From the NCBI GenBank assembly GCA_030220185.1, contig JASPKZ010009951.1, positions 62,001 to 126,000 on the forward strand: a stretch of DNA of 64,000 bases, given 5' to 3'. How positions within the stretch are numbered: position 1 is the first letter of the stretch; every line of letters begins with the position of its first letter. Both the position numbers and the translations under genes were made by a program. Positions 33,223 through 62,474 of this stretch are shown one piece after another. This DNA is from Diploptera punctata. Its lineage: Eukaryota > Arthropoda > Insecta > Blattodea > Blaberidae. The notes beneath the pieces were generated by a model that worked only from the letters and a program-made list of their open reading frames with translations, was not told the DNA's origin and ran no database searches.

Positions 33223-33515
33223 CTCTTTACAAATAAATAATTAAGTTAATATCAAATAAAATGTTTAATCTATCAACCAAATTAATACTATTTTCATTTA
33301 TCCTACATTCCTTTCAACCTCCCATCAAATTATTTCAATGAATTATATCCCTACATTAAAATAGTAGCAGTTCCAGATACTCATTTGATTACCACACTTA
33401 GATTTGACTTGAATTGTTATTAAGTCACGTATCAGAATAAGAATAGCACAGATGATAAGATCATATTCTAAAGTTGGTAATAAAAGATTCCGGGCTATGT
33501 GGCCGTGGTCTATAA

Positions 33516-33581
33516 CTGGCGTTTCTTCCAGACGTTTCTCCCTCAACTGCGGAGGGCATCTTCAGTGGCGAGCGCTTCCAG
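33516..33581 (-). ncRNA. hammerhead ribozyme-like motif, left arm of copy 1
   Basis: The left arm is the reverse complement of the right arm, so the same complete core lies on the minus strand. Transcripts of either strand would carry one sense core and one antisense arm. Confidence 0.7.
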
Positions 33582-33631
33582 CAGTTGTTTCCCTGTCGAC
33601 TGCAGTCGAGTCTACGACAGGGAAACAACAG

Positions 33632-33697
33632 CTGGAAGCGCTCGCCACTGAAGATGCCCTCCGCAGTTGAGGGAGAAACGTCTGGAAGAAACGCCAG
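33632..33697 (+). ncRNA. hammerhead ribozyme-like motif, right arm of copy 1
   Basis: Core CUGAAGA (33648-33654) matches the consensus CUGANGA. Stem II is CCCTC/GAGGG (33657-33661 with 33669-33673) with a seven-base loop and a U55-A74 closing pair with one bulged G. GAAA (33675-33678) follows. Stem III is the minimal ACGU palindrome (33678-33681), with C33682 as cleavage base 17. Stem I is CCA/UGG, then an internal loop, then GCG/CGC and CUG/CAG (out to 33632/33697). This is the minimal type-I form with a very short stem III described for Penelope-like elements. The secondary structure is my pencil fold. Activity is untested. Confidence 0.75.
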
Positions 33698-33867
33698 TTA
33701 TAGACCACGGCCACATAGCCCGGAATCTTTTATTACCATGATTACCGGCCGTGAAAGCCTGCATTTCATATTCTAAAGGTTTTGTTATTATTTTTATTTG
33801 ACGATGCAACTACATCATTAGCATCACAATTCAAACATGGCCGTCATATTTGTTCTGGGGCCTGTTT

Positions 33868-58760: not shown

Positions 58761-59549
58761 CTAAGAACAATATAAGTTCAATTAATTTTGAAAATCACAT
58801 GTTTACAATTTTGATGTATTTTTTTCATTATTAATAAAAAAATGTCTGATTAATGAAAGGTATTTGGAGAGAATGTGTAATTAAAATAATTGATAATGTT
58901 AAAAGTGAAAAGATAATGAAGTAAAACAGTAATATATAGGCCCTACTGGCAATATAATAAATTGTGTTGAATTAAAAACTATTTTATAAAACCTAAGGGA
59001 TGAGTCATTCCCTTCATTGCATTGAGCGACCGCCACTGGTTTGTGGTTGTTCTCAACTCATCTACAATAGACCTATAGTTCATTCACTCCAAATTTTCAT
59101 TCACTAAAGTTTGTTGTACGATTATAAATAGCACAGTGGGAGACGTGATTTGTAATAAATGTCTAGATAATGATATGAGGTTATTAAAGAAAATATCTTG
59201 GCAAGAGTATCTGACCCAATCTAAAAATAGTTCACCAATGCCTCCTTGTCATGAAATTGGAACACACACAATGTATTCCCAACAGAAAACCTTTCTGAGT
59301 TGTGAGTTTTGGAAATTTAATTTAGGTCTCCGCTGCAAATTTGATATCGCAGCGACATTTTTATTAACGAATGGGAGACTGTTTAATAAAATAACTTTGG
59401 CGATTTAAAACATGCGATTTATATTCCACCTTTTAGAAGAGTAGAAAGCTGACAGTGTGTTATTAGAGGTCTAAAATAAAATAAGTTAAAATATACCTTC
59501 TTAGATAAAATCCGTCGTCCTCAACTTATAAAATATGTAATCTTTATGC

Positions 59550-59587
59550 CTGTAGGCCTTTCAGAACATCCGTTCCATCTTCAGCAG
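59550..59587 (-). ncRNA. hammerhead-like motif, left arm of copy 2
   Basis: The minus strand of the left arm has CUGAAGA, stem II GGAAC/GUUCU, intact GAAA, stem III AGGCCU, A17 and CUG/CAG. It is the better preserved of the two arms. Confidence 0.65.
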
Positions 59588-59693
59588 TTCACTCTTCGCT
59601 ACAGCATCCAGTATGATGGTCGTGACTCACGACAAAGCCACATTAGGACCAGCAGCATCAACCATCATACTGGATGCTGTAGCGAAGAGTGAA

Positions 59694-59731
59694 CTGCTGA
59701 AGATGGAACGGATGTTCTGAAGGGCCTACAG
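59694..59731 (+). ncRNA. hammerhead-like motif, right arm of copy 2
   Basis: Stem I CUG/CAG (59694-59696 with 59729-59731), core CUGAAGA (59697-59703), stem II GGAAC/GUUCU (G-U at the base) with loop GGAU, GAA at 59719-59721, stem III GGGCCU (palindromic, AGGCCU in the left arm), cleavage base A59728. In this arm the fourth A of GAAA is G. The left arm keeps GAAA. Confidence 0.6.
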
Positions 59732-60014
59732 GCATAAAGATTACATATTTTATAAGTTGAGGACGACGGATTTTACCTAAGAAGGTATATTTTAACTTAT
59801 TTTATTTTATGACTCTCCACCTCAACGGTTTTAACAATGAATTTTATTAATATTATTAGAGGTAGCTTCAAAAACTCTCTGTAGGCCTATCACACGTATA
59901 AAGCTGTTGAAAGCGATTAAATATTTAACCTTCGTCGATACGGTAATTTTTTCTTTCTCTTAAACCGACGCCAGTCAATTTTTTTCTGTTTAACTAATTA
60001 TGAGGGAAAAATAC

Positions 60015-61803: not shown

Positions 61804-61982
61804 CTTTCTCCAAGAGATATAACTAAGGTAAATATGTACATAAGCTTATATAGGTAATGACATAAAGTTATCAACTTTTATAAGATTCATGATGTGTTCC
61901 GTTGAGGTTTATTCAAAATTAATATAAAATTATGGAATATTCACCTGAAAGGTCCGTCTCCTCAACTTAATTAATCATTTAA

Positions 61983-62018
61983 CTGTAGCGCTTTCGGGAC
62001 TTGTCCGATCATCGGCAG
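61983..62018 (-). ncRNA. hammerhead-like motif, left arm of copy 3
   Basis: The minus strand has CCGAUGA, a weaker stem II (one mismatch), GAAA, AGCGCU, A17 and CUG/CAG, mirroring the right arm. Confidence 0.5.
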
Positions 62019-62396
62019 GATTCAAAACTGACATGTAAGAACTGCAACAAATTTTATATAGGAAGGGCAAACAGGAGTTTTAACATCAGATTCAAAGAAC
62101 ATTTTCGAGACTTCATTCACGCAGAAGGGAAATCAAGCTATGCAAAACACGTTATCCATGAAGGACATCGCATGTTACATATTGAAAACACCCTAACAGT
62201 AATGCACAGAGAAAATAATCCAGCGAAGATAAACGTACTCGAAGAGATGGAAATCATGAAAGCAGCTCACAACGACAGCCTGATAAACGAAAACGAACCC
62301 AATACATGCAACCCCCTCTACCAGATATTCAGTGAAAGACCAGTTTTGAATCCTGCCGATGATGGGACAAGTCCCGAAAGCGCTACAGTTAAATGA
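62001..62396 (+). pseudogene. Penelope-like GIY-YIG endonuclease domain fragment
   Basis: An open frame (TTG as first codon, so no true start). The core reads LTCKNCNKFYIGRANRSFNI, RFKEHFRDF, SSYAKHVIHEGHRM. This is the C-x2-C-x3-YIG-x3-R-x4-R-x2-EH pattern of Penelope endonuclease, which nicks DNA for target-primed reverse transcription. The first and last parts (..SDHRQDSK and NPADDGTSPESATVK) are translations of the inverted arms and not native protein. Residues GIY are represented by the C-terminal half only (YIG), and the RT domain that should precede it is missing, so the fragment cannot be autonomous. Confidence 0.85.
62353..62388 (+). ncRNA. hammerhead-like motif, right arm of copy 3
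   Basis: Stem I CUG/CAG (62353-62355, 62386-62388), core CCGAUGA (62356-62362; consensus CUGANGA, so position 4 is C instead of U), stem II GGGA/UCCC with loop CAAG, GAAA (62376-62379), stem III palindrome AGCGCU (62379-62384), cleavage base A62385. Both arms have the C4 change, so activity is doubtful. Confidence 0.55.
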
Positions 62397-62474
62397 TTAA
62401 TAATTAAGTTGAGGAGACGGACCTTTCAGGTGAATATTCCATAATTTTATATTAATTTTGACATAAAGTTAGCA

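Follow-up and report, generated by a model that had tools for sequence, protein, structure and literature searches.

The 292-base element at 33474-33765 of the window (the whole stretch of 64,000 nucleotides that was analysed) is a member of a dispersed family of Penelope-type pLTR insertions that carry a hammerhead core and number in the thousands. We consider it likely that its two inverted arms arose together in a single integration, with both 3' ends of a staggered cut of ~13 nt priming RT on the same short RNA.

Let us look at the element itself, which is bracketed by 13-nt direct repeats. The near-perfect inverted arms described in the earlier note are indeed present (124 nt each, at 33475-33598 and 33615-33738, 99% complementary, with a spacer of 16 nt between them), and so is the 13-bp target-site duplication that it reported. 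The tail of 27 nt is found on the right side only, the left arm being without it. Each arm carries a minimal hammerhead motif, one per strand as the earlier note had it, with the core in the order CTGAAGA, 5-bp stem II, GAA, ACGT and C17. The "long stem I" of that note is wrong, since only 3 bp of contiguous stem I (CCA/TGG) adjoin the core. There is no ORF of at least 80 aa within the element, only an open frame of 37 aa, and no ORF with RT and GIY-YIG as an autonomous PLE would have; the element is a non-autonomous product. The features of the element, together with those of two other places in the window, are collected in Table 1.

Table 1. Positions of the hairpin element and of related elements in the window
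Feature	Position	Strand	Remark
Left target-site duplication, TCATATTCTAAAG	33461..33473	.	Other copies carry different duplications
Left arm, antisense pLTR copy, begins at site B (ACCA), tail-less	33474..33600	-	Boundary alike in most sampled copies
Mirror hammerhead core	33531..33565	-	
Head-to-head centre joint	33597..33602	.	Exact point uncertain because of short matches
Right arm, sense pLTR copy, begins near the common 5' end (C)ATTCGCAG	33602..33738	+	
Hammerhead core, stem III palindrome ACGT	33648..33682	+	Predicted cut after C33682
37-aa open frame	33654..33764	+	ATG overlaps the hammerhead core; open through to the tail end
One-sided tail, site A	33739..33765	+	Ends here at GCATT, elsewhere extends up to CCACTA
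Right target-site duplication, TCATATTCTAAAG	33766..33778	.	
Second hairpin family, same plan, AGGCCT stem III hammerhead core	59460..59863	.	
11-bp duplication TTATTAGAGGT of the second hairpin	59460-59470, 59853-59863		
Second hairpin arms	59465-59620 / 59661-59816		Tail ~59817-59852, one only
Penelope GIY-YIG endonuclease fragment (frame 61989-62396) between inverted pLTR-like arms	61913..62461	+	

The second hairpin is also one of many, and the best 40 of its 1,907 candidates (the window's own included) all match in both orientations. In both arms at 61913-62461 the hammerhead core carries C in place of U4, and no target duplication was found there. Five frames of the window gave no Pfam match.

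Copies of the hairpin and their enzyme-coding relatives

The size of the family can be judged from its tail. In the genome of 3.12 Gb, 6,534 places match the tail pattern at no more than one mismatch (the control gives 0), and exact counts over the whole genome give 2,021 arm ends, 974 of which are then followed by the tail. A search with the 292-nt query, which favours full hairpins, returned 657 candidates, and the best 40 of these, when scored, all match in both orientations and are hairpins. This set consists of the window copy and 39 others; L041 and L046 are the same locus taken twice, so it represents 39 loci. The duplication is 12-16 bp long in 33 of the 40 copies, with a sequence that varies from copy to copy, while the remaining copies have 20 bp (one, in a simple repeat), 7-9 bp (four) or none (two). 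The duplications are 78% A+T, as compared with roughly 60-70% in the 2-kb blocks of the window. Right ends fall mostly between GCATT and GCATTCCACTA in these 40 copies, and left ends mostly begin at GGTAAT, plus or minus one or two bases. There are two preferred outer ends, ~33 nt apart: site B, without the tail, is 85 nt from the ATG, and site A, with the tail, is 118 nt from it. The anatomy is that of a Penelope-like insertion, with inverted pLTRs, a tail at one of them, a target duplication and an AT-rich target. The earlier view of a mobile unit made of a Penelope-like pLTR with a minimal hammerhead is right; the absence of duplications from other copies, named in advance as the result that would speak against it, did not occur, and other genomic copies have the same hairpin form with duplications at their flanks. 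At L021, the left arm and ~46 bp of flank are duplicated beside the hairpin, as if by a template switch into host DNA.

A second sample of 30 loci was picked by the tail alone, and 24 of them are head-to-head hairpins. A left arm is missing from the other six, among which L106 has a 14-bp duplication, so single-arm insertion occurs as well. The duplication is at least 11 bp in 20 of the 24 hairpins (two of them in simple repeats), 8 bp in one and absent in three. The tail is at the opposite end by selection, and the left arms of 19 of the 24 stop at q141-143 (BLAST alignment ends), with the other five ends at q120, 136, 136, 148 and 148. One locus, L087, has an inverted piece of the tail ~106 bp outside the left arm and is a possible two-tail case. 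The first 100 arm ends listed include 26 close pairs that are head-to-head, 0 that are tail-to-tail and one that is same-strand. Counted by exact match, exactly one tail is present in 23 of the 26 head-to-head pairs, two in 0 and none in 3; among the last, C432 has a tail when one mismatch is allowed.

An enzyme-coding PLE of the same anatomy, a candidate helper, is present in the genome. Matches to the GIY-YIG endonuclease (EN) are very common, the best 150 of 45,023 first-look candidates being all over the cut-off. A search with one of these matches, L048, gave 175,223 candidates; among the best 150 of them, which were scored, all 13 neighbouring EN pairs less than 6 kb apart are head-to-head, with gaps of 96-2,732 bp. 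Four pairs were fetched, selected for their short gaps. All four have a hammerhead pLTR at both outer ends and exactly one tail each, and three have duplications (12, 13 and 12 bp), L110 being without a convincing one. L109, L110 and L111 are palindromic across their full 1,370-1,447 bp at ~98%, and in L112 arms of 677 bp flank a stretch of 135 bp. A stop-free frame of 838 aa with RVT_1 and GIY-YIG domains is found at L113, the plan of which is inverted pLTR, pLTR, ORF, and pLTR with tail. Placed beside these elements, the hairpin seems to be the minimal form of a general plan.

A parent with the same pLTR was not found by the GIY-YIG search, by the L048 lead or by a search with the 37-aa frame. 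At L048 an 88% pLTR lies beside an EN, an adjacency that may be a chance neighbourhood. The longest frame in the 37-aa search is 193 aa among the 150 scored of 26,224 candidates, a depth at which a parent may be missed. The tails of the hairpin and the enzyme-coding families differ. The motif GTGAAAG is in both, in a possible small stem-loop that may be a protein-binding feature.

The hammerhead motif and its predicted cut

The earlier note had named beforehand the lack of a match to the Rfam hammerhead models as the result that would count against its ribozyme, and Rfam gives no hammerhead at the element, at the gathering cut-off or even at E<=10. What Rfam does report there are miRNA families, below their cut-offs, which are matches to a long hairpin, and it likewise missed both of the other Penelope hammerheads tried. 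A bare hammerhead descriptor finds 4 hits in 150 simulated 64-kb sequences that have the dinucleotide steps of the window; a match to the descriptor alone is only moderately significant. Stronger support than this comes from other Penelope families, as 14 motifs with a perfectly palindromic stem III are found in 14 of 30 GIY-YIG loci and 0 in 60 simulated sets. Ten of the 14 belong to a single family and four to two others, giving three families overall.

Six cores (three of them in the window) were compared, and since they were picked by the motif itself their support is not independent of the search. Their helices differ in sequence and all pair. Stem III is ACGT, ACTGCAGT, ATCGCGAT (twice), AGGCCT or AGCGCT, which makes five palindromes; an ATG overlaps each of the six cores, and U4 is changed to C in one. 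The parts of a minimal type I hammerhead are all found, namely CUGANGA, stem II, GAA, A15.1-U16.1, H17 and stem I. When a single sense arm is folded, no hammerhead appears and the stability is not unusual (z 0.55), a weak test because stem III would be intermolecular.

Minimal hammerheads with a palindromic stem III are expected to act as dimers in Penelope elements, according to excerpts of three papers (PMC7761336, PMC6155905, PMC6466107), and the excerpt of one of them says that the dimers require a tandem arrangement (PMC6466107). The palindromic stem III of the present motif would fit such dimers, and the hammerhead, acting as a dimer, probably has a function in the wider Penelope cycle. 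The hairpin has one motif on either strand, and in a read-through RNA the two would pair with each other. The predicted cut at q86/87 coincides with an arm end in 0 of the 24 sampled hairpins; those that come closest are the ends q83 (L101) and q94 (L088), and the single-arm L093 starts at q81. Because no sampled arm end is at the predicted cut, cleavage seems not to set the insertion ends. The predicted cut, which the pairing of the arms would hide, does not seem to be needed for the hairpin form.

Centre joints and the origin of the hairpins

Each centre joint links two arms, with break points that vary in the neighbourhood of a common 5' end. Thirty-five distinct centre joints are found in the 40 similarity-chosen copies (39 loci), and the 24 tail-selected hairpins have 24 different pairs of end points, some of them deep within the arm. 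With its own joint and its own arm lengths in nearly every copy, the hairpin looks like an insertion product and not like a template, and the suggestion that a pLTR pair had been reduced to a mere hairpin that could still transpose is not supported. The longest right arms reach (C)ATTCG, with a T preceding in L014 (TCATTC), and this sequence at the hairpin centres resembles what we take to be the arthropod initiator.

The two arms of a copy can also be compared with each other. Of 32 carriers of shared source variants, 23 have them in both arms and 9 in a single arm. Over 39 copies the differences between arms sum to 43, against a permuted mean of 84, and a sum as low is reached in 0 of 20,000 permutations. 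The variant in arm column 113, a C>A change near site B, is confined to the right arm in 4 of the 39 copies (L009, L010, L011 and L044), which have differing joints. Deep co-truncation of the arms is seen in 6 pairs as against 1.2 expected (8 of 100,000 shuffles), at cut-offs of 30 and 15 nt that were chosen after the data were seen. Over all 24 hairpins the two arm ends give a Spearman coefficient of 0.24, which is not significant (p 0.26), and a weak linear correlation (Pearson 0.43, p 0.04).

In the single event that we favour, a Penelope RT/GIY-YIG protein would cut AT-rich DNA and leave 3' overhangs, one of which would prime at site A and the other at site B, ~33 nt upstream. Both cDNAs would then extend to the 5' end of the RNA near (C)ATTCGCAG or to a break, the 3' ends of the cDNAs would be joined via short matches into a head-to-head inverted repeat, and fill-in would yield the target duplication. 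The template could be any copy whose transcript begins at the common 5' end, since initiation inside the RNA would make the downstream flank irrelevant. The purified Penelope protein of Anolis cuts and extends both strands, and it begins RT at two neighbouring positions within the RNA, with 111-118 nt into the ORF the most frequent; the Anolis tail is the stretch between these two RT start sites, and hammerhead mutants insert as well as the wild type (PMC11167929). The two outer ends of the hairpins match the two RT start sites of this protein. The Anolis start sites are equal on both strands, with no fixed pairing of A and B shown (PMC11167929).

There are other ways in which such hairpins might be made. 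That the hairpin itself is mobile, as a fold-back element whose RNA or DNA is copied whole, would be in line with the presence of both arms in 24 of the 30 sampled loci and with the four centre joints that occur at two loci each, the arms of one pair (L015 and L016) being identical too. The centres, however, are distinct in 24 of 24 and in 35 of 40 copies, the source variants are mostly in both arms though the joints differ, and two pairs of copies (the window copy with L030, and L015 with L031) have equal break points yet differ in the source variant, so that copying of the whole hairpin appears quite unlikely, although some ready-made hairpins may have been copied. Alternatively, the 3' end of a single tail-primed cDNA could fold back and copy itself. 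This would suit the near-perfect palindromes and the co-truncation, and self-priming on an antisense template is the published suggestion for head-to-head Penelope repeats in the excerpt of PMC3846280. The fold-back copy, however, is expected to run through the tail into the primer, whereas the left arms stop at q141-143 in 19 of 24, mostly beside the duplication; we regard such a snap-back as unlikely.

Perfect hairpins may also have been inserted and have lost their centres later, through cruciform cutting and repair. Long palindromes are unstable, and a symmetric loss would likewise give co-truncation, but in three of the four enzyme-coding insertions the palindrome runs right up to the centre, at three different lengths, an outcome that would be rare from two independent break points, and centre loss seems very unlikely. 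It is highly improbable that the family is a retrozyme, made by reverse transcription of hammerhead-cut circular RNA from tandem arrays. The hammerhead and one tandem array of ~434-bp units (C3393) would speak for it, but that array is a single locus, where all 14 occurrences of the upstream sequence (at most 2 mismatches) are found, and full arms end at the common 5' end, ~85 nt upstream of the predicted cut and not at it. The hairpins show neither tandem direct repeats nor ends at the hammerhead cut. Hardly credible is a fold-back DNA transposon or MITE moved by a transposase, as the terminal inverted repeats are long but the ends are asymmetric, with a tail at one, and the arm lengths vary by up to ~100 nt; neither symmetric terminal inverted repeats nor a duplication of fixed length, as in a MITE, is found.

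The array on C3393 (L114, 2982849 to about 2989000) is a direct tandem array, with 14 units by the upstream sequence, and each unit read holds a single sense arm with a hammerhead. In a 1-kb piece it is shown by BLAST and missed by Tandem Repeats Finder. As the source of a retrozyme it was rejected, being one local array only; it is perhaps how a retrozyme could start.

Coming back to priming from both strands, we hold evenly balanced a broader reading, in which twin priming at two preferred sites on one RNA would be the main integration route of Penelope, each hairpin would be a frozen record of an event, and pLTR-only hairpins would be a self-sustaining non-autonomous class with the hammerhead silenced by the inverted form. 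If this is true, a hairpin records the cut, the two start points and the two end points of a single event.

Comparison with known systems

The excerpt of PMC3846280 describes Pen2a of Adineta vaga (mentioned also in the excerpt of PMC8969392) as having inverted head-to-head pLTRs with a 31-bp tail at one, a 9-bp target duplication and palindromes at the joint. The hairpin family is like Pen2a in the inverted head-to-head pLTRs, the tail at one pLTR and the target duplication. It is unlike Pen2a, as the element appears in that excerpt, in that the whole insertion here is two pLTR copies, that there are thousands of copies and that the duplications are ~13 bp. PAc, the Penelope of Anolis, also has a hammerhead near the ORF start and AT-rich targets; its two RT start sites bracket the tail and both strands are extended in vitro (PMC11167929). 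Unlike the hairpins, PAc is an autonomous tandem element, and doubled hairpin products are not described for it in the abstract and main text of PMC11167929. The in vitro work left the later integration steps of Penelope unvalidated (PMC11167929).

The motif shares a minimal, palindromic stem III with the minimal type I hammerheads of Penelope elements (excerpts of PMC7761336, PMC6155905 and PMC6466107), and differs from those in the excerpts in its inverted placement on opposite strands, with no tandem dimer in one transcript. Like the metazoan retrozymes, in the excerpt of PMC7229834, the hairpins are small and non-autonomous with a type I hammerhead; unlike the retrozymes described there, they are dispersed inverted doubles with no tandem direct repeats. 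In the open-licence literature, covered by titles and abstract openings, we found no pLTR-only hairpin families and no twin priming of Penelope, and we do not claim that these are unpublished.

Penelope integration becomes testable by counting, as there are thousands of short young copies in which both ends and the joint can be seen, and the copies suggest that the hammerhead cut is not what sets the ends of an insertion. In the twin priming of LINE-1, the two strands of one target each prime a cDNA, and the two cDNAs are joined in inverted orientation as an occasional by-product. In the hairpin family, unlike LINE-1, twin priming would be the main route, and it would take place at two preferred sites.
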